From: SAR202 cluster bacterium
Lineage (GTDB): Bacteria; Chloroflexota; Dehalococcoidia; Lucifugimonadales; OSU-TB39
Direction: 5' to 3'
Assembly: GCA_009392195.1 (NCBI GenBank)
Contig: VFGY01000016.1
Coordinates: 1 to 64,000, forward strand
Length of the DNA stretch: 64,000 nt
Part shown: positions 73 to 61,642 of the stretch, piece by piece
Layout: each line of letters opens with the position of its first letter
How positions within the stretch are numbered: position 1 is the stretch's first letter
Notes under the pieces: model-generated
Database searches by the model: none
What the model saw: the letters and a program-made list of their open reading frames with translations, nothing else
Told to the model about the DNA's origin: nothing
Program-made: the position numbers and the translations under genes

Positions 73-1449
73 TTATCTTTTTGAGTATCTCCTTGAAGAA
101 GATTTTTTCTTGTTTCTATAGTCGGGAGCTTTTATGGGTACTACTTGTGAGATATACCCATCTTGAACTCGTGAGGTGATTGGGTCAAGTTCGTCTTTAA
201 AATCAAGCATACTGGTGATAACAGTTGGTAATCTTGAATTGTGTCTATGAACTATTATTTGATAGAGTTTTTCTATAGCCCATGTACTACTTCTTTCTTT
301 ACCAAGATCATCCAGTATTAATAAGCTAGCATTTTTAACTTCGTCGAAAAGCGTGTCATATTGCACATCGCTTTGTGGGTTATATGTGAACCTTAAATGG
401 TCCATAAGTTCTGGTACAAATGCGAAAAATACGTTCGAATTGTTTTTAATTTGTTCAACTGCTATTGCTATAGCCAAATGGGTTTTCCCTACTCCCGTTT
501 CGCCGTAAAGGGTTAGCCATCCATCAGGATTTTGAGCAAAAGATTGGGATGACTTTAATGCAGCGGATAAACTTGAATATTGATCACTTGTCAAATTTTG
601 ACGTTCTAATATGAAATTTCCAAATGTCATTGTTTTTTGCATTGCTATTGGTATGTCTCCAATACTAGTCGTAGTTTTGGAAATAGTTTTGCTTAAATCT
701 ATAATTTTCCCATTGTTAGTGTCTTTTATCCTAGACAAAATATATGGGTCAAATTTAGATAGATTTTCACCGATTGTGATTACAGTTGGGAGTTCTAAAT
801 TGTATCTGTAATTAAGTATCTGTCTTAATTTTTCTTGAGCCCAAGGTGAACTTATTTGTAATCCAAGGTCATCAAGTATTAAATATGGGGTGTTTTTGAC
901 TTGTTCAAATAATTCGCTATATGAAGTATCACTGGTAGGATGGAATGTAGATTTAAGATGATCAACAAGGTCTGGAACATGTACGAAAAGTACCAAATGG
1001 CCTTTATCAATAATTGAATGACCGATGGCTGATGCCAAATGGGTTTTACCACTTCCATGGGGTCCTGTTAAGATCAGCCAGCCTTTAAGACTATCTGTAT
1101 ACTTTTTTATCTCAGTTAAAGATTTCAAGTATTCTAAGTTAACTGTGGTATCAGATTTCCAATAATCATCTTTTAATGTTTCGAACTTAAACCTTTTTAA
1201 ACTTTCCAAATTGCTGTATCTATACAATTTTTTTGTTTTTTCCGTGTCAATTTTAGTGGATTGACAACTGCATATAAGGATTTCTCCAAAATCTTGATGA
1301 CCAACCGGAACATTTTTAGTTTGCCATCCTACGCCATTGCATTCTGGACATGGGTTGTTTTTTTTAGGTATTAAACTTTCGTTTGATTTATTATCTTCTG
1401 AAGTATTGGTTATAGCCACTTTTTTTAGAATTTTCCCCAATTCTTCCAT
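73..1449 (-). CDS. DnaC/IstB-like helicase loader with two tandem AAA+ ATPase domains and N-terminal Cys cluster
   Basis: Two Walker A motifs (GPHGSGKTH, GETGVGKTH), two Walker B motifs (YLILDDLG, LLILDDLG), CPEC...CSC N-terminus; next to dnaB and DnaD-like gene. Confidence 0.85.
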   Translation of the reverse strand: MEELGKILKKVAITNTSEDNKSNESLIPKKNNPCPECNGVGWQTKNVPVGHQDFGEILICSCQSTKIDTEKTKKLYRYSNLESLKRFKFETLKDDYWKSDTTVNLEYLKSLTEIKKYTDSLKGWLILTGPHGSGKTHLASAIGHSIIDKGHLVLFVHVPDLVDHLKSTFHPTSDTSYSELFEQVKNTPYLILDDLGLQISSPWAQEKLRQILNYRYNLELPTVITIGENLSKFDPYILSRIKDTNNGKIIDLSKTISKTTTSIGDIPIAMQKTMTFGNFILERQNLTSDQYSSLSAALKSSQSFAQNPDGWLTLYGETGVGKTHLAIAIAVEQIKNNSNVFFAFVPELMDHLRFTYNPQSDVQYDTLFDEVKNASLLILDDLGKERSSTWAIEKLYQIIVHRHNSRLPTVITSMLDFKDELDPITSRVQDGYISQVVPIKAPDYRNKKKSSSRRYSKR

Positions 1450-7512: not shown

Positions 7513-8284
7513 TTTGAATACGGAGATGGATTTATGGTCTGATATATATGATCAGGTATATCTTGATGTAAATGAAGATATTGATTTTTATGTTCAAGAA
7601 TCTATTTTAAGCGATGGATCAGTACTAGAATTAGGATGTGGTACTGGTCGGGTTACATTTCCTATTGCCAGAGAGGGTATAGATTTAATTGCAATAGATA
7701 ATTCTACCGGAATGTTGAAAATGGCTTTGGAAAAAATTAAGCATCAAGATACTTCATGCACTAACTTAGAATTTGTCAAATCAGACATGAGGAATTTTAC
7801 ATTTAACAAAAAATTTAATTTGATTATTATTCCTTTTAGAGGTTTTCAATCTTTACTCAATATCAATGATCAAATTCAAACACTTTTAAATATAAAAGAA
7901 CATTTGAATAGAGATGGTAGATTTATATTTAATGCGTTTGTTCCAAGCTCTGAGTCAATGGAGGGTCCTGAGGATATTTTATCCCACTATAAAGATGTTC
8001 AAGACGTGGAAAACGATCGCAAATTTATCATTTGGAATCAAAGCGAATATGATCAATTTAATCAAATAGTTCACACTAGAGTGGTGGTAGATGAATCTAA
8101 TAATTTGGGTGACGTAGTGAGACGTTTTTACAGAGATTTTTCTCTCCGTTATACATTTCGTTGGGAATTCTATCATTTATTGAGGTCAAATGGATTTAAA
8201 TTATTAAATCTTTATGGGGATTTTGAAAAATCTGATTTTGATGATTCGAGTACTGAGATGGTTTGGGAATTTGGTTTGGAATAG
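7499..8284 (+). CDS. class I SAM-dependent methyltransferase
   Basis: VLELGCGTGRVTFPIAREG motif I. Confidence 0.85.
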   Translation: MQVDSLNTEMDLWSDIYDQVYLDVNEDIDFYVQESILSDGSVLELGCGTGRVTFPIAREGIDLIAIDNSTGMLKMALEKIKHQDTSCTNLEFVKSDMRNFTFNKKFNLIIIPFRGFQSLLNINDQIQTLLNIKEHLNRDGRFIFNAFVPSSESMEGPEDILSHYKDVQDVENDRKFIIWNQSEYDQFNQIVHTRVVVDESNNLGDVVRRFYRDFSLRYTFRWEFYHLLRSNGFKLLNLYGDFEKSDFDDSSTEMVWEFGLE

Positions 8285-8424
8285 GTGAACTAGTACAACT
8301 TGATTATTTGATTTCCTATCTGGATTTCCCCAATCAATCTAATTGCTATTACTTATGTGAATTACGAAGCTATCCTAAATGGTAATTGAATCGTTTCAAT
8401 GGATAGAAGCTGTTTTTTAAGGAG

Positions 8425-9705
8425 ATGATTTTCATGATAAGAAATGTATATGCCATCGCCATATTTATCGTGTTACTGGTGGTTTTGGGATGTGGAGGAG
8501 TAGAAGATACATTAACAACTGAGAATATCAATCTAGTTCAAGATCCAGTTTCAACGAACATAGTTGAAATCAAAGAATCTACATACGATAGTGATAATGA
8601 AGTGGCGATTGAAGATAATTTATCGAGTCCTGAAGACCAAGTTTTAAATGAAGATGATGACACTATAGTTGGATACATCGATGTGATTGGAGCGTATGAA
8701 TTAGCCATAAATGATGTTTATAACAAAGTACTGAACTCTATAGTTCACGTAGAAGTTGAATATAAATCTTTATCTAATGCATATACTCAACAGAGAAATT
8801 CATCAAGAGGCGAAGGTTCAGGATTTGTTTGGGATAGCAAAGGACACATAGTAACGAATCACCACGTTGTTGCAAGTGCATCGTCGATTAATGTCATATT
8901 TGCTGATTATTCAGAATATGAAGCAACGTTGATTGGTAGTGACTCGGACTCTGATTTAGCTGTATTAAAATTAGTTTCCAAAAATGATCTTCCGAATCCA
9001 ATAGAACATGGAGATAGTGATATTTTAAAAGTTGGTCAGATGGCTATAGCTATAGGAGCCCCATTTGGTCAGGAATTTACTGTTACTAGCGGTATAATAA
9101 GTGCTTTAGGTAGGACCATACAGAGTGTTAGAGGTACTTTTTCAAATCCTAAAATAATCCAAACAGATGCTCCAATCAATCCAGGCAATTCTGGTGGGCC
9201 TTTGCTAGATAAATATGGCAGAGTTATCGGTATAAATTCTCAGATTGCCTCAGCTAGTGGTAGCAACGCAGGCGTTGGTTTTGTTGTGCCTATTAATACA
9301 GCGAAACTTGTTGTGCCAGAATTAATAAGTTCAGGAAAATTTGATCATCCATATCTAGGGATTTCAGGAGTAACTCTTAGAAGGCAAATTGCCGAATCTC
9401 TAGATATACCACCGAATACCAGAGGTATATTAGTAGCACAAGTTGTTCCGAATAGCCCTGCTGAAGAAGCAGGATTAAAATCCAATGAAATTAAAACCAC
9501 ATCGGGTTCGATTAATTATGTGTCAGGTGGAGATATAATTATTAGTGTTGAAGGATTTCCTATAAGATCTATGGAAGAATTACTTTCATATATGTCTGAT
9601 AACGTTAGACCAGGTGATCAAATAACACTTGAGGTTATTTCCTTTAATGGTAAGACCCGGGATGTTAACATATCAGTTGGTAGTAGGCCGAATAACCAAA
9701 CTTGA
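8425..9705 (+). CDS. HtrA/DegP-like trypsin-type serine protease with PDZ domain, lipoprotein signal
   Basis: Lipobox-like LVVLGCGG; TNHHVV, DSDSDLAVLK, NPGNSGGPLL catalytic motifs; C-terminal PDZ. Confidence 0.93.
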   Translation: MIFMIRNVYAIAIFIVLLVVLGCGGVEDTLTTENINLVQDPVSTNIVEIKESTYDSDNEVAIEDNLSSPEDQVLNEDDDTIVGYIDVIGAYELAINDVYNKVLNSIVHVEVEYKSLSNAYTQQRNSSRGEGSGFVWDSKGHIVTNHHVVASASSINVIFADYSEYEATLIGSDSDSDLAVLKLVSKNDLPNPIEHGDSDILKVGQMAIAIGAPFGQEFTVTSGIISALGRTIQSVRGTFSNPKIIQTDAPINPGNSGGPLLDKYGRVIGINSQIASASGSNAGVGFVVPINTAKLVVPELISSGKFDHPYLGISGVTLRRQIAESLDIPPNTRGILVAQVVPNSPAEEAGLKSNEIKTTSGSINYVSGGDIIISVEGFPIRSMEELLSYMSDNVRPGDQITLEVISFNGKTRDVNISVGSRPNNQT

Positions 9706-46891: not shown

Positions 46892-48238
46892 ATGGGTGGA
46901 AATGTGAAAGAACTTCAAGAATTAAAAACATCGATTATTGAAAGCATAGATCGTAAATCTATTGATGCCATCAATATAGCAAAGCAGGTATTGAAAAATC
47001 CAGAACCAGGTTTTAGGGAATATAAAACTAGCCAAATAGTCAAAAATGAATTTGAAAAACTAGGGTTAAATTATGAGGCAGATATAGCATTAACTGGAGT
47101 AAAGGCGAAATTAACAACTGGTAAATCAGGGCCAAATATTGCTGTTATAGGAGAATTAGATTCTTTAATCGTAAAAGGTCACGAATTTGCCGATCCAGAA
47201 ACACTTGCGGCACATGCTTGTGGTCATCATTGCCAAATTGCCATGATGCTAGCTGTTGCGAGTTGTTTTTCATCTTCAGATATATTGGAATCGTTGAGTG
47301 GATCGTTAACTTTCATAGCAGTACCTGCAGAAGAATATATAGAAATAGAATTTAGAAACGACTTGATGAAAGCCGGTAAATTAGAATTTTTGGGAGGTAA
47401 ACCTGAATTTGTGAGGTTGGGAGCTTTGGATGATGTAGATATAGCAATGATGACGCATACAGATGCTAGAGATTCCATGGGAGGTGATATAGGGGTAGCG
47501 CCTACAAATAATGGTATGCTGGCTAAATTAATATCATATGTTGGATTAGCCGCTCATGCAGGAGGATCTCCTCATACAGGTATTAATGCTTTAAATGCAG
47601 CTACAATTGCACTTTCGGCAATTCATGCACAAAGAGAAACTTTTCAAGAAGAGGATAGTATAAGGATTCATCCTATTATTACTAGAGGAGGATTAGCTGT
47701 AAGTTCAGTTCCATCCGATGTTAGAATTGAAACTTTTGTTAGAGGAAGTAATGTAGAAGCGATAATTGATGCAAGTGCAAAAGTAGACAGAGCGCTAAAG
47801 GCAGGAGCATTAGCAGTTGGGGCTGATGTTAATATTGTTACTCTTCCTGGTTATTTACCAATAGTAACAGATAATAATCTTGAAAATATTTATATTGAAA
47901 ATGCAAAAAGATTAGTGGGTTCAAATAAGGTTGTTAAGATGAAACACAGAACTGGTTCAACAGACATGGGTGATTTAAGCCAGATAATGCCAGTGATACA
48001 TCCGTATGTTGGTGCTGCTAGTGGGGTGGCTCATGGGCCCCATTATCTAATTGAGGATTACGAATTAGGAGTCGTCACTGGGGCCAAAGCAATGGCTTTA
48101 ACAATAGCTGATTTAATGATTTCAAATGGGGGTAAAGCCGAGAGTGTAATCGATGATCATAAAAATCTGATGACCAAATCCCAATATTTGAAATTCCTAC
48201 GTTCTAATTTCAAAGATGAATATTTCTCATATAAATAA
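46892..48238 (+). CDS. M20-family amidohydrolase/peptidase
   Basis: GELDSLI; AAHACGHHCQIAMMLA; PAEEYIEI; GLAAHAGGSPHTGINALNA. Confidence 0.9.
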   Translation: MGGNVKELQELKTSIIESIDRKSIDAINIAKQVLKNPEPGFREYKTSQIVKNEFEKLGLNYEADIALTGVKAKLTTGKSGPNIAVIGELDSLIVKGHEFADPETLAAHACGHHCQIAMMLAVASCFSSSDILESLSGSLTFIAVPAEEYIEIEFRNDLMKAGKLEFLGGKPEFVRLGALDDVDIAMMTHTDARDSMGGDIGVAPTNNGMLAKLISYVGLAAHAGGSPHTGINALNAATIALSAIHAQRETFQEEDSIRIHPIITRGGLAVSSVPSDVRIETFVRGSNVEAIIDASAKVDRALKAGALAVGADVNIVTLPGYLPIVTDNNLENIYIENAKRLVGSNKVVKMKHRTGSTDMGDLSQIMPVIHPYVGAASGVAHGPHYLIEDYELGVVTGAKAMALTIADLMISNGGKAESVIDDHKNLMTKSQYLKFLRSNFKDEYFSYK

Positions 48239-50884: not shown

Positions 50885-51478
50885 TCAGCGATTAGAGATA
50901 ATGTCGTTGATTTTTTGAAGGGTTTGTTCTATTTTCCCTTCAGGGTTATTAACAACATGATCAAATTCATTTTTAGATTCTATTTCCAATAGAGCTGTTT
51001 CCATTCGCAGTCTAAATGATTCTTTTGATTCACTCATTCGGGCACTAAGATGTTCCGCAAGCTTTGATATGTCAGGCGGGGTTATGAATATAGTTATTAC
51101 TTCATTGATGATGTTTTTAATAGTTTTAGCACCTTGAATATCAGCTTTTATAATTACGTTTTTGTTTTGTGATAATGCTAGATGTACTTGATTTTTCGGA
51201 ACTCCGTAATTGTTGTTATATACTCTAGCCCATTCCAAAAAATCATTTGAGTCAATCATTTGTTGGAATTTTTTATTGCTTACGAAAAAATAATCTTTTC
51301 CATTTATTTCGTTAGTTCTTTGCTTTCTTGTTGTTACTGTAACTACATAATGGTTTGAAGTATAGATTTTTTTCATTCGATTCAAAATTGTATCTTTTCC
51401 AACTCCTGAAGGACCAGAGATAACAAATATTTTTGGAGTTTGTATTGGGTTTTTTGTCTCATGTATCTTATTATTCAT
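50885..51478 (-). CDS. gmk: guanylate kinase
   Basis: VISGPSGVGKDTILNRM; VTTRKQRTNEINGKDYFFVS. Confidence 0.95.
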   Translation of the reverse strand: MNNKIHETKNPIQTPKIFVISGPSGVGKDTILNRMKKIYTSNHYVVTVTTRKQRTNEINGKDYFFVSNKKFQQMIDSNDFLEWARVYNNNYGVPKNQVHLALSQNKNVIIKADIQGAKTIKNIINEVITIFITPPDISKLAEHLSARMSESKESFRLRMETALLEIESKNEFDHVVNNPEGKIEQTLQKINDIISNR

Positions 51479-51479
51479 T

Positions 51480-52778
51480 TTATGATATAAGTATATCTAG
51501 TGTATCGCGGAATTTTGGATATGAAACATCTACTGATTCAAAATTATTAATAGTGGTGACTCCCTTTCCTATTAGTCCTGAGATAGCTGCTAACATTGCT
51601 ATCCTATGGTCATTCAGCGAATCACATTCATTCCCATATAGTTGGTTAGATCCGTTGATGATCATTCCATCTTCGGTAGCACTGATGTCAGAACCTAAAG
51701 TACGCAAAGTATCAACTGTGGAAGTGATACGATCAGATTCCTTGTATTTTAATTCCTTAGCGTCTTTAATTATAGTTTTCCCTGATGCACAACTTCCGGC
51801 TAAAGCAAGGATAGGGATTTCATCAATGATTTCGGGTATTACTTTTCCTTGTATGGTGACACCCTTAAGCTGACTTGATTTTACTTGAATATCAGCAATA
51901 GGTTCAATCATTTCTTCTTGTAAATTGATTATTTTTATATTTGCGCCCATTGACTGCAATACATCAATAATTTTACTGCGAGATGGATTGATACCGACAT
52001 TTTTTATCAATATATTTGCATTTTTGTGACAAATTCCTGCAACCAACCAGAATGCAGCTGCACTGATATCTCCGGGTATTAGAATATCTTTTGCTTGCAA
52101 AGTTGATGAATTAATGGATATGTTGGCCTCATTAATTTCGATGTTTGCTCCCATGAACTTCAACATTCTTTCAGTATGGTCTCTTGAAGGTTTCAAATTA
52201 TATAGTTCTGTTTCGCCTTGGGCAAATAATCCTGCTATCAGTAAACAAGATTTGACTTGGGCACTGGCTACTTCAGGCGAATATTTGATTCCTTTTAAAT
52301 TACCTCCATCAATTGATATAGGAGGAACAGTGTTGTTTTTTGATCCATAGATTTGAGCTCCCATTTTTGAAAGAGGTTCTATGATCCTTTTCATAGGTCT
52401 GTTGCGAAGCGATGAATCTCCGTCAATAACTGATGCAAAAGGTTGTCCTGATAATAAACCTGCAAGTAACCTCATGGTAGTGCCGCTATTTTCTGCATCT
52501 AAAGCCACTTTAGGTTTTGTGAGACTGTTTAAACCGTTGCCAATTATATAGATTAATTCTTGATTAGTGTCAGGATCAATTTCTTTTTTTAAATTTACCC
52601 CAAGATGTTGCAGGCAATTGAACATTGATAAAGCATCACTACCAGTGTTGTGATTACTGATAGTAGAATTTCCTATAGCAATTGAATTTAAAAGCATTGC
52701 CCGTTGGGTGATTGATTTATCTCCAGGCAGGCTTATGACGCCTTCTAATTTATTTGCATTCGAGACTTTAAATTGCAT
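51480..52778 (-). CDS. aroA: 3-phosphoshikimate 1-carboxyvinyltransferase
   Basis: LPGDKSITQRAMLLNSIA; NSGTTMRLLAGLLS; KESDRI; NDHRIAML. Confidence 0.96.
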   Translation of the reverse strand: MQFKVSNANKLEGVISLPGDKSITQRAMLLNSIAIGNSTISNHNTGSDALSMFNCLQHLGVNLKKEIDPDTNQELIYIIGNGLNSLTKPKVALDAENSGTTMRLLAGLLSGQPFASVIDGDSSLRNRPMKRIIEPLSKMGAQIYGSKNNTVPPISIDGGNLKGIKYSPEVASAQVKSCLLIAGLFAQGETELYNLKPSRDHTERMLKFMGANIEINEANISINSSTLQAKDILIPGDISAAAFWLVAGICHKNANILIKNVGINPSRSKIIDVLQSMGANIKIINLQEEMIEPIADIQVKSSQLKGVTIQGKVIPEIIDEIPILALAGSCASGKTIIKDAKELKYKESDRITSTVDTLRTLGSDISATEDGMIINGSNQLYGNECDSLNDHRIAMLAAISGLIGKGVTTINNFESVDVSYPKFRDTLDILIS

Positions 52779-52916: not shown

Positions 52917-53402
52917 TTAATGTCCACCACATGCACATCCACCACCGCCACCATGTCCTCCACATCCGCCACCACCACCACCATGTCCTCCACATCCACC
53001 ACCACCACCACCACATGCACATCCACCACCGCCACCATGTCCACCACATCCGCCTCCGCCACCGCATCCGCCTCCACCACCGCCACATCCACATCCAGAT
53101 TGTGCATTTGGATTTGTGATAACAAATCCACTACGGTGTAGGCCGTCAACATAATCTATTTCAGAACCATCTAGTAATGGTGCACTATTTTCATCAACTA
53201 ATATTGTTAAATCTTTAAATTGCATAACTAAATCGGTTTTATCTGGTTCTTTGTCTATACCCATTTGATACTGGAAATCGCCATTGCCGTCATCAGTAGC
53301 TATCAACCGAAGTAAGGTCCCATTATCTGTTTGTTCAGATACTGCCTTTGTCATTTCTTCGATTGCTTTATCTGTAACTTGAATTAAAGAAGAATTAACC
53401 AT
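52917..53402 (-). CDS. A-type Fe-S carrier (HesB/IscA/ErpA-like) with 58-aa Gly/Cys/His-rich C-terminal tail
   Basis: VTDKAIEEM; GSEIDYVDGLHRSGFVITNPNAQSGCGCG core, then 58-residue G/C/H tail. Confidence 0.9.
   Translation of the reverse strand: MVNSSLIQVTDKAIEEMTKAVSEQTDNGTLLRLIATDDGNGDFQYQMGIDKEPDKTDLVMQFKDLTILVDENSAPLLDGSEIDYVDGLHRSGFVITNPNAQSGCGCGGGGGGCGGGGGCGGHGGGGGCACGGGGGGCGGHGGGGGGCGGHGGGGGCACGGH
52927..53042. repeat. 32-bp exact direct repeat, 84-bp period, inside the Gly/Cys/His tail coding DNA
   Basis: CCACATGCACATCCACCACCGCCACCATGTCC at 52927-52958 and 53011-53042. Confidence 0.9.
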
Positions 53403-53591
53403 TAAAACACCTCTTAGTTGTTTACGTGATACTTTGTATCGTGCTTCAGAATAATTTATATATTAGAATACCAGATTCAAGAGTAAAAATTAAATCATTT
53501 CAAGGTCAATTTGTACCAAGGTGATGGGTTTGACAAAAAATCAAATGGGTCTTGAAGGCGAACAAATATCATTAGATGTATTCTTAATTTG

Positions 53592-53634: not shown

Positions 53635-53754
53635 CCTCTGGTGGCTGTTGCGAAGTGGAACCACCCGTTACCATCTCGAACACGGAAGTGAAACGCCTCA
53701 GCGCTCACGATACTGCATTCGCGAGGATGTGGGAAAATAGGTCGCTGCCAGAGG
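53635..53754 (+). rRNA. rrf: 5S ribosomal RNA
   Basis: CCTCTGG...CCAGAGG terminal stem; CACCCGTTACCATCTCGAACACGGAAGTGAAACGCCTCAGCG. Confidence 0.93.
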
Positions 53755-53940: not shown

Positions 53941-55131
53941 ATGGAGATTTATTTGACTAATTTTGATTCCAACCAAGATAACATCATGGACATGGGTGAA
54001 TTATTAGATAGTGCTGATAATTTAAAGCCGTTAAAAAAAGGAGAAATTGCTCGTGGTATTGTTATGCGAGTTGATCCAAATGGTGTTTATCTTAGCTTTG
54101 GGGGCAAATCTGAAGGGCTTGTACCAATAGCTGAAATGAAATCAGCATCTCTAAATGTTGATGGCTCAGATATAGAAAACAGCTTGGATGTAGGTAAAGA
54201 GGTTGCAGTAATGGTGTTGTCTGACGAAAGGTCGGATGGATCTGTACTTTTATCAATAGATAAAGCCTTAGCTGAATCTGGTTGGGTAATCTTGAAAGAT
54301 GCTTTGAATTCGGGAGAGATTCTAGAAGGTGCCGTTGTTAATTTCAATAAAGGTGGCGTCATTGTAAACGTACATGGGGTAGATTGCTTCGTGCCTATTT
54401 CTCAGTTGGTTAATAAGAATCAGAATGTTGAATTTGATAAGATTGACAAAGATGAATCAGATATAAATAACAATGTAGAAATAAAACAGCATGGATTGGA
54501 AAAAGGTGACGTGATTTCCGTTAAAGTTATTGAAGCTGATCGTTCCACAAGCCGTTCGGTTTTATCTGAAAAATTGGCCTCGAAACAGATTCGAGAAGCG
54601 AATAAAACCAGAATAATAAATGATTTGGTTGAAGGTGAAAGTAGGCAAGGCATTGTCTCTGGGATTAGTAAATTTGGAGCTTTTGTTGATATTGGTGGTG
54701 TTGATGGATTAGTTCATATATCCGAATTATCTTGGTCTAATGTCAAATCTCCCTCTGAAATAGTGTCGGTCGGGGATGCAATAGAAGTATATTTATTGAA
54801 TATCGACAAAGAGAATTTAAGAATTGGATTGAGTATAAAAAGATTGTTGCCCAAGCCTTGGGACAATATAGGCAGCAAGTATAATGTGGGTGATTTAATT
54901 GATGTTACTGTAACTAATTTGGTGGAATTTGGAGCTTTTGCAAGGATTGAAGAATCAATTGAGGGTTTAATTCATATATCTGAATTAGGACATGATGTTG
55001 TTAAGCATCCAAAGGAAGTTGTAAAAGAGGGAGATGAGATAAAGGTAAAAATTGTTAGTATAGATGTTGATAAAGAAAGGATAGGTCTAAGTATAAAACA
55101 AGTTGAAGAATATTTTGGCACCGAGTTATAA
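53941..55131 (+). CDS. S1 RNA-binding domain protein (four S1 repeats; ribosomal S1-like)
   Basis: Repeats such as GIVSGISKFGAFVDIGGVDGLVHISELSW and VTNLVEFGAFARIEESIEGLIHISEL. Confidence 0.9.
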   Translation: MEIYLTNFDSNQDNIMDMGELLDSADNLKPLKKGEIARGIVMRVDPNGVYLSFGGKSEGLVPIAEMKSASLNVDGSDIENSLDVGKEVAVMVLSDERSDGSVLLSIDKALAESGWVILKDALNSGEILEGAVVNFNKGGVIVNVHGVDCFVPISQLVNKNQNVEFDKIDKDESDINNNVEIKQHGLEKGDVISVKVIEADRSTSRSVLSEKLASKQIREANKTRIINDLVEGESRQGIVSGISKFGAFVDIGGVDGLVHISELSWSNVKSPSEIVSVGDAIEVYLLNIDKENLRIGLSIKRLLPKPWDNIGSKYNVGDLIDVTVTNLVEFGAFARIEESIEGLIHISELGHDVVKHPKEVVKEGDEIKVKIVSIDVDKERIGLSIKQVEEYFGTEL

Positions 55132-55184: not shown

Positions 55185-57671
55185 ATGACAAGTAGCAGCA
55201 GATTTGAAAAATTTTCCGAAAGGGCTAGGCGAGTTTTATCGTATGCCCAAGAAGAAGCACAGAAGTTTGAACATAACTATATAGGTACGGAACACATACT
55301 ACTTGGCTTGGTTAGAGAGACGGAAGGTGTAGCTGCTAGGGTTTTGATTAATTTAGATATTGAATTAGATAAAGTAAAGTCTGCAGTTGAGTTTATTATC
55401 GAAAGGCAGGAAAAAGGATCAAGCAAAGAAATAGGATTAACTCCTACTTCCAAAAAAGTTATAGAGCTATCAGTTGATGAAGCTAGACGTCTAGGTCATC
55501 ACTACATTGGCACAGAGCATCTATTAATAGGCTTGATGAGGGAAGGGGATGGAGTTGCAGCCGGAGTGTTAGAAAGCCTAGGAATAAATCTTGAAAAATT
55601 AAGGGAAGAAACTGGACGTGTGTTGGTTCAGAGAACTCCAAAACCAAAGCCAGTCAATGCTAAAGCTACTGGTCGTACTCCTACATTGGATCAGCTTGGT
55701 ATTGATTTAACTGTTGCAGCTAAGGAAGGTAAACTGGACCCCACTGTTGGTAGAGACCAGGAAATAGAAAGAGTTACTCAAATACTAAGCAGGCGTACAA
55801 AGAATAATCCAGTTCTTGTTGGTGAGCCAGGAGTTGGTAAAACAGCAATAGTAGAAGCTCTAGCTCAGCGTATATCAGATAAAGATGTTCCCATAACATT
55901 AAAGGGTAAGAGACTTGTTACCTTAGAGATGGGATCTTTAGTGGCAGGCACTAAATATAGAGGTGAATTTGAAGAGCGTCTAAAAAAAGTAATAGAAGAA
56001 TTAAAATCCGCGGGTGATTGCGTTTTATTTATTGACGAAATTCATACTATGGTTGGGGCGGGAGCTGCTGAAGGAGCGGTGGATGCAGCTAATATATTGA
56101 AACCATCATTGGCTCGCGGGGAATTGCAATGTATAGGCGCGACCACTTCTGATGATTATCGTAAGTATATTGAGAGAGATCCGGCTCTTGAAAGAAGATT
56201 TCAACCCGTAAGTGTTAATGAACCGAATGTTGAAGATACTGTTGATATATTGAAAGGAGTTAAAGGAAGGTACGAAGAGCATCACCAACTGGATATAAGT
56301 GAAGATGCTGTAATGGTTGCTGCTAATATGGCTGCTAGATATATATCTGATCGTTTTATGCCTGATAAAGCTATCGATTTAATAGATGAAGCCGCTTCAA
56401 GGGTGAGAATAAATTTTGGGGCAATACCAAAACCATTGAAAGAAGCTTTGAAAGAACTGGATTCATTAAAAATGCAAAAAGATGAAGCTATTGTTGGTAA
56501 ACAATATGAACAGGCAGCTGAACTAAGAGACAAAGAAGTCAAATTGGTGAAAAAAATAGAAAAAATGGAGAAGGATTGGCAAGAAAAGCAACAGGCTGAA
56601 ATGCCTATAGTTGGGGCTGAGCATATAGAAGAAGTCGTAAGTATGTGGACGGGTATTCCATTGCAAAGATTGTCTGCCACAGAAACACAAAGGCTCATAA
56701 ATATGGAATCTGAGTTGAAAGAAAAGGTTGTCGGACAAGATGAAGCAATAGTTGAGGTGTCTAAAGCAGTAAGGAGAGCACGTTCTGGATTGAAAAGCCC
56801 CAAACGGCCAGTAGGAGTGTTTATATTTTCAGGTCCCACCGGAGTGGGTAAAACTTATTTAGTGCAAAAATTGTCTGAATTTATTTTTGGTAGTGAAGAT
56901 TCTGTGATTAGAGTAGACATGTCTGAATTTATGGAACGTCATTCCGTAGCTAGATTGGTTGGAGCACCTCCCGGTTATGTTGGTTATGACGAAGGTGGTC
57001 AATTGACTGAAGCTGTACGGAAAAAATCCTACTCTGTAATACTTTTGGATGAAATAGAAAAAGCGCATCCTGAAGTGTTCAACATACTGCTACAAATTTT
57101 TGATGATGGCCACTTGACTGATGCGAAAGGTAGGAAAGTTGATTTTCGTAATACTATAGTGGTGATGACTAGTAACATAGGCTCTGATTTGATAAATCAG
57201 GACAAAAGCCTAGGTTTTTCAACTAAAGCACTAGAAGATGAAGAAGAACAAGCTACATATAAAAGAGTGAAGTCAAATGTTTTAGATGAAATTAAGAAGT
57301 TTTTCCGTCCTGAATTTCTAAATAGGATAGATGGTACCGTTGTGTTTCATGCTCTTAGTAAATCGCATATGAAAGAAATTGTAGATTTAATGTTGAATGA
57401 AGTTTCGGTTGGATTATTTGAAAAAGCTATAACTCTGGAAGTTACGGATAAGGCTAAGGATTGGTTGTCTGAAAAAGGATACGATCCTCATTTCGGAGCA
57501 AGGCCTTTACGCAGAATGATACAAGACCATGTAGAAGATAAATTGTCTGATGCAGTTTTGGCAGGTGAATTTAGCCCTGGAGATACAGCTGTTGTTGATT
57601 TGAGCGATGATGGCGAGATTCAAGTGAGATGTGAATCGCCGATACCTGTAGCTCCTAAACAAAAAACTTAA
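55185..57671 (+). CDS. clpC: ATP-dependent Clp protease ATP-binding subunit ClpC
   Basis: Clp N repeats, [31 protein letters not shown] motif, 828 aa. Confidence 0.95.
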
Positions 57672-60454: not shown

Positions 60455-61642
60455 ATGACTGTTGAACCGAAATTAGTTTACATGGATCATGCAGCTACGA
60501 CTCCTATAAGGGAAGAAGTTTTAGAGCAAATGATTCCATACATGAAACAATATTATGGAAATCCATCGAGCATATATACTCTTGCACAAGAGTCAAGACG
60601 GGCAATAGATGAGTCGAGAGAAAATGTCGCTCATTTAATCGGGGCGAGGACCAGAGATATCATATTCACATCCGGTGGTACTGAATCAGATAATGCTGCC
60701 TTGAAAGGGACTGCAGCAGCATTACGCTCTATGGGTAACCATATAATAACCAGCAGCATCGAACATCATGCTGTTTTGCATGCATGTCAACAATTAGAGG
60801 ATCTAGGGTTTGAGATTACATATTTGCCAGTGGATAAATATGGTTTAATTGATCCTGATGATGTGGGTAGGGCTATTAAAAAAGATACTATATTAACTAG
60901 CATAATGATGGCTAATAATGAAATAGGTTCTATTCAACCAATTAAAGATATTGCTCGGGTAGTTAAAGAAAAATCCAATAAACTTAATACCAAGATATTG
61001 GTTCATACCGATGCGGTACAAGCAGTAGGATCGGAAGAAGTTAATGTTAATGAACTAGGAGTAGACTTACTTAGTCTCAGTGCGCACAAATTTTATGGAC
61101 CTAAAGGGATAGGTGCATTATATATTCGTAGAGGTACTCCATTCGAACCTTTGATAGTCGGCGGAGGGCAAGAAAATCAACGTAGGTCTGGTACTGAAAA
61201 TGTAGCCAACATAGTTGGTTCCTCTATAGCTTTGTCCTTGGCTATACAAAATTTATCTGAAACTAAAAATTCTTGTAAATTATTGAGAGATGAAATAACA
61301 TCTAGGATTTTAGAAAACATACCGCGAACGACCTTAAATGGACACCCGACGAAGAGACTTGTAAATAATGCTAATATATCTTTCCATGGGTTAGAGGGAG
61401 AATCAATTTTATTGGGTTTGGATTTAGCAGGTATATCTGCTTCTAGTGGTAGTGCATGTACCTCAGGTTCTTTAGAACCTTCTCATGTTTTATTAGCTAC
61501 AGGCCAATCTGCAGAAATTGCTCAAAGTAGTGTTAGATTTACCGTTGGTTATGAAAATACAAAACAAGATGTTGATTATTTATTATCGGTTATTGTTCCC
61601 TTGGTAGATAAATTAAGGGAACTTTCTTCAATTTCAGTTTAA
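60455..61642 (+). CDS. cysteine desulfurase (NifS/IscS-like)
   Basis: [54 protein letters not shown]. Confidence 0.95.

Follow-up and report, generated by a model that had tools for sequence, protein, structure and literature searches.

The window analyzed here, a stretch of 64,000 nucleotides from a SAR202 cluster bacterium (contig VFGY01000016.1), encodes an A-type Fe-S carrier in which the core has lost its cysteines and the candidate ligands all lie in a C-terminal tail rich in glycine, cysteine and histidine. We judge it slightly more probable than an even chance that this protein is a divergent carrier in which the flexible tail has completely taken over the ligation of the cluster, or of iron, from the folded core. 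The way in which A-type carriers bind their clusters is still debated, as is the question of whether ligation requires the fold or whether the fold serves for docking only; the family described below may represent a case in which evolution has separated these two roles throughout an order of bacteria abundant in the ocean. Besides, the family has a cultured representative with a closed genome.

Both its profile matches and its fold place the window protein among the A-type Fe-S carriers. The original prediction, made from the DNA letters and their translations, had proposed a core of the HesB/IscA/ErpA type, and profile searches agreed: the Fe-S_biosyn family (PF01521) matched residues 7-107 (E 4.6e-17) as the sole significant domain in the Pfam search, which returned no Nfu and no metallothionein family match, and the general NCBIfam subfamily TIGR00049 exceeded its cut-off of 58.8 with a score of 95 bits. 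None of the NCBIfam equivalog models (IscA, SufA, ErpA) passed its cut-off for this protein. AlphaFold2 gave a confident A-type core, with pLDDT of about 70-94 in the core blocks, and pLDDT below 50 over residues 103-157, which points to a disordered tail. Foldseek matched it best to structures of A-type carriers, with E values reaching 6e-8; the top set included AQ_1857, HI1723, the IscA proteins of E. coli and of T. elongatus (the latter with a [2Fe-2S] cluster), and SufA, as well as DsrR, a protein of the A-type fold. The loss of the first cysteine ligand was equally well founded, as the loop reads DDGNGDFQY where ordinary carriers have GGGCSG.xxY, and beyond this position the whole core is devoid of cysteine. 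Because this ligand is missing, the protein is a divergent homologue of the A-type carriers and a non-canonical member of their family. The predicted tail composition proved exact, the segment following NAQSG comprising, as assembled, 42 Gly, 10 Cys, four His, and two Ala, and its DNA forms an imperfect tandem repeat in which glycine is encoded by GGT, GGA, and GGC (Table 1).

Table 1. Features of the tailed carrier gene and of its surroundings in the window.
Feature	Position	Strand	Remarks
Guanylate kinase (gmk)	50885-51478	-	After aroA
aroA (EPSP synthase)	51480..52778	-	Next gene downstream of the carrier; conserved neighbor in other loci
CDS, 161-aa tail-bearing A-type carrier	52917..53402	-	ATG start; ribosome-binding site; PF01521, TIGR00049
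Terminal CACGGH motif	52920..52937	-	Common to many family members
Gly/Cys/His/Ala tail, residues 104-161 (58 residues)	52920..53093	-	Composition; pLDDT
CGCG, residues 104-107	53082..53093	-	C-terminal CxC motif of A-type carriers, kept
A-type core, residues 1-99, cysteine-free	53106..53402	-	PF01521, AlphaFold2, Foldseek
Loop residues 37-45, first Cys ligand absent	53268..53294	-	Compared with ordinary carriers
Ribosome-binding site AAGAGGTG	53408-53415		5 nt upstream of the carrier ATG; read from sequence
5S rRNA	53637..53753	+	Divergent, between carrier and S1 gene; Rfam RF00001, 80.9 bits
S1-domain protein	53941..55131	+	Divergent neighbor; arrangement conserved in about 18 loci
ClpC	55185-57671		After the S1 gene
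Class-V aminotransferase, IscS/NifS-like cysteine desulfurase by sequence	60455..61642	+	PF00266; 7 kb off, non-adjacent

The gene is real, common to its lineage and part of an order-wide family. It lies on a 187-kb contig of an assembly of 2.05 Mb (97.9% complete, 9.2% contamination), and a search for long-tailed homologues, which the original prediction had proposed, found them across the order (SAR202/Dehalococcoidia), in which 53 of the 59 genomes hold a match of at least 75 bits, ordinary carriers scoring 58 bits or less. Most of these matches, together with those of further genomes, were read and carry Gly/Cys-rich tails wherever they are not cut by contig ends or runs of N. The named records with a tailed carrier include SAR202 and Dehalococcoidia MAGs as well as the cultured Ca. 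Lucifugimonas marina JH1073 (L099, CP046147), whose genome was closed with PacBio sequencing (PMC10444878). The occurrence of homologous tails in independently assembled genomes, one of them that of the closed isolate, rules out an assembly artefact or frameshift, a danger acknowledged from the start, and the parallel concern that close homologues might all end at CGCG was equally unfounded, since the homologues that were read extend further; the shortest tail, that of L056, has 11 residues and two cysteines. Elsewhere in the genome of the window the CxCGG pattern, searched at the DNA level, occurred at two further sites, neither of them a Gly/Cys tail.

Across 106 distinct members lacking the loop cysteine, four cysteines were counted in 9742 core residues (the core being taken as its last ~92 residues), while the tails measured 11-93 residues (median 37.5) with two to 12 cysteines per protein (median 6), and 85 members ended in a C-terminal histidine. 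In a set of 142 proteins, a tail rich in Gly, Cys and His with at least four cysteines was present in 87 of the 90 without the loop cysteine, and the ordinary CxCGxxF ending in 41 of the 52 that have it. Three SAR202 proteins (L067, L068, and L080, around 8031-8453) show a Gly/Cys-rich loop insertion at the place of the first cysteine in addition to a Gly/Cys tail. Additionally, a separate lineage of the class (L151, L152, L154, and L166) has tails rich in Ala, Cys and Glu, with ACACGGGGA repeats, on cysteine-free A-type cores.

The arrangement of cysteines within the tail was compared with shuffles for 91 tails retained after thinning. Successive cysteines were spaced as CxC in 221 cases, against 76 in the shuffles (maximum 103), an approximately threefold excess, whereas CxxC did not occur at all against 64 in the shuffles (minimum 42), and adjacent cysteines were found five times against 89. 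A secondary excess was seen for a spacing of seven (56, versus 26 in the shuffles, which reached 43 at most). Ala or Gly occupied the central position of CxC in 205 of the 221 cases, the first tail cysteine usually opened CACG or CGCG, and GGH was the commonest ending after the last cysteine (45 of the 91 tails). Given that CxC is in excess, CxxC absent and CC rare, the tail reads as a series of repeats of the C-G-C ligand motif of the A-type carriers themselves.

Chloroflexota carriers can be arranged in a graded series between the ordinary and the tailed form. At one end, ordinary carriers with GGGCSG and CxCGxSF have an added second C-terminal CGCGH (SCGCGHSF...CGCGH; L180, L181, L183, L186, and L191), and others keep the loop cysteine and bear a short GGGCGGGCSCGGH tail (L171, L175, and L178); further along, the loop cysteine is lost and the tails are of the CACGGQCSCGGH type (L055, L075, and L217), and the series closes with proteins that combine loss of the loop cysteine with long tails. 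Because the core tree, built on 100 columns, is poorly resolved and a single origin is not rejected, we infer the order of these steps with caution. The loop-cysteine state changed four times on the best, quick tree, of which the starred branches force two, and a single origin received a p-AU of 0.07, for which reason we do not claim a repeated and coupled loss of the loop cysteine; when loop loss was set against a strictly defined "two CxC" trait, the independent-pairs test had only two to four pairs to work with.

On the divergent side of the carrier, the window holds genes for 5S rRNA, S1, ClpC, RadA, a LarC-like protein, a cysteine-desulfurase-like protein and, after it, thioredoxin. The 5S rRNA gene is solitary, and the window contains neither a 16S nor a 23S rRNA gene. 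A layout of ClpC-S1, carrier and M50 protease-TyrA-AroA recurs in many other loci. No direct operon of the carrier with suf or isc genes was found, the neighbors in the lineage of the window being housekeeping genes (aroA, S1, and clpC). In the Lucifugimonas lineage, the carrier is divergent from a gene for an Lrp-type regulator, and a 4Fe-4S ferredoxin gene lies less than 200 bp downstream of it on the same strand in 15 loci. At 46892-48238 (+) the window also encodes a 448-aa protein resembling M20-type peptidases, with no Pfam match at E 1e-10.

With regard to the Fe-S machinery of the host, the genome of the window has SufB/D-type genes and a second, ordinary A-type carrier, which adjoins a GcvT/YgfZ-like gene and is ~28% identical to the tailed one. 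The Nfu domain (PF01106) is absent from this genome and exceeds the cut-off in none of the 59 genomes of the order, compared with 112 of the 251 genomes of the phylum. Its absence is also common in Chloroflexota without such a tail, so that a replacement of Nfu by the tail is suggestive only. The SufB/D-type matches number four in two places of the assembly (C16 118040-120901 and C7 1293-4071), compared with two in relatives, and the C7 pair may be contamination. The assembly encodes yet a third A-type protein (L193; G000:C1, a 2.7-kb contig, 734-1093, minus strand), which lies beside a phytoene/squalene synthase gene and whose nearest neighbor in the tree is not from Chloroflexota; it is probably contamination, the assembly being listed at 9.2%.

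A tail of this kind could in principle arise by neutral expansion, a GGN/TGY-rich 3' end growing by slippage without any function, and the degenerate tandem repeat in its DNA would suit such an origin, as would the indels that make the tails of close relatives differ in length (e.g., 38 versus 45 and 37 versus 54). However, the tail is under purifying selection and is kept as a Cys-patterned element: dN/dS over 14 close-relative pairs, aligned with a codon aligner, was about 0.06 in the core and about 0.16 in the aligned tail codons, the tail value being approximate as the aligner sets gaps freely. Moreover, glycine codons are a single step away from codons for Cys, Ser, Arg, Asp, and Val alike, and yet Cys dominates the 91 tails (577 residues, compared with 134 Ser, 25 Asp, 21 Val, and four Arg); because these other neighbors are rarer, it is apparently selection, and not drift, that maintains the tail cysteines. 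The CxC enrichment, the absence of CxxC, the common GGH ending and the presence throughout the order also speak against neutral expansion, which is disfavored and which we consider improbable. It is extremely improbable that the protein is a thiazole/oxazole RiPP precursor in which the A-type domain would serve as leader and the Gly/Cys tail would be heterocyclized by a YcaO enzyme as in microcin B17, since the resemblance to a Gly/Cys-rich core peptide is set against a housekeeping gene context and an order-wide distribution. A YcaO-dependent RiPP/TOMM precursor was rejected, YcaO (PF02624) exceeding its cut-off in none of the 59 genomes of the order, that of the window included.

The main rival to a carrier function is a metallothionein-like buffer or metallochaperone for Zn, Cu, Ni or Fe, in which the tail would sequester ions and the A-type core would merely anchor it. 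Ten cysteines and four histidines within 58 residues, on a flexible tail of variable length with a terminal His, are compatible with such a role, CxC patterning is found in metallothioneins too, and at a distance of 6 kb the window contains a gene for LarC-type nickel insertion, which 11 loci have in the vicinity. Nonetheless, LarC is part of a clpC-radA block rather than a direct neighbor of the carrier, the spacing is almost exclusively that of the carrier's own ligand motif, one lineage has a ferredoxin gene next to the carrier, and an A-type core retained across the order at the dN/dS given above exceeds what an anchor needs; we therefore regard this buffer as unlikely, although it deserves serious attention. 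The many cysteines on a flexible arm, together with the genes for a cysteine desulfurase and a thioredoxin at 7-9 kb in the window, might also suggest a sulfur or redox relay whose cysteines take persulfides or form disulfides, feeding sulfur or shielding clusters from oxygen. Such a relay has a low probability in our estimation, as the CxxC redox motif is missing from all 91 tails, CxC pairs with a terminal His better match metal ligation, and these neighbors are not conserved as an operon. The original prediction had envisaged a metal or Fe-S tail fused to an A-type carrier, and this fusion fits all the evidence, the tail being selected and Cys-patterned; this tail may serve as a reservoir, or metallothionein-like element, or may provide the relocated ligands of a working carrier.

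Taken together, the CxC-only pattern, the graded series, the presence of SUF without Nfu and the adjacent ferredoxin gene in one lineage are the reasons for which the relocated-ligand carrier is favored. A-type carriers are thought to use three cysteine ligands, of which the C-terminal CxC supplies two, and in NfuA an A-type domain without ligand cysteines targets apo-proteins while the C-terminal part carries the cluster (PMC8593673). By analogy with this degenerate domain, the core of the tailed carrier, which keeps the A-type fold, probably docks to SUF components and apo-targets and dimerizes. The tail would correspond to the C-terminal CxC pair of ligands of ordinary carriers in multiplied form, with a terminal histidine added, and may bind a single Fe-S cluster or iron ion, or several of them, for delivery to targets. 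On the simplest view of its origin, extra CxC/His units would have been added C-terminally, the loop cysteine would have become dispensable and the core would have remained as a docking and dimer module. A further and rather doubtful proposal is that the several CxC units of each chain hold several clusters or ions simultaneously, which would make the tail a length-tunable Fe-S store replacing Nfu in SAR202.

The open-access literature searched yielded no description of an order-wide combination of a cysteine-free A-type core and a selected, CxC-patterned tail. With IscA, SufA, and ErpA (PF01521, TIGR00049) the window protein shares fold, sequence family and C-terminal CxC, whereas those carriers have the loop cysteine and a short ending in place of a cysteine-free core and a 58-residue tail with 10 cysteines. 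DsrR (PDB 2K4Z) has the A-type fold (Foldseek E 3.8e-5) and, like the window protein, is not known to have the full set of cysteine ligands, but it belongs to a sulfur-oxidation context, none of which was seen around the window carrier, and it is not known to have a Gly/Cys tail. Metallothioneins and the His/Cys-rich tails of metallochaperones present dense cysteines with histidines on a flexible chain, and metallothioneins resemble the family in cysteine density; however, the tails described here are attached to an A-type core and hold almost only CxC, with no CxxC and very few CC. NfuA likewise combines an A-type domain without cysteine ligands and a C-terminal part that supplies them, as we propose for the tailed carrier, but this part is an Nfu domain in NfuA and a disordered Gly/Cys/His tail in the window protein, whose genome is without Nfu. 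Overall, the fold and the family are already known, and the novelty lies in the cysteine-free core joined to a selected, CxC-patterned tail across an order.
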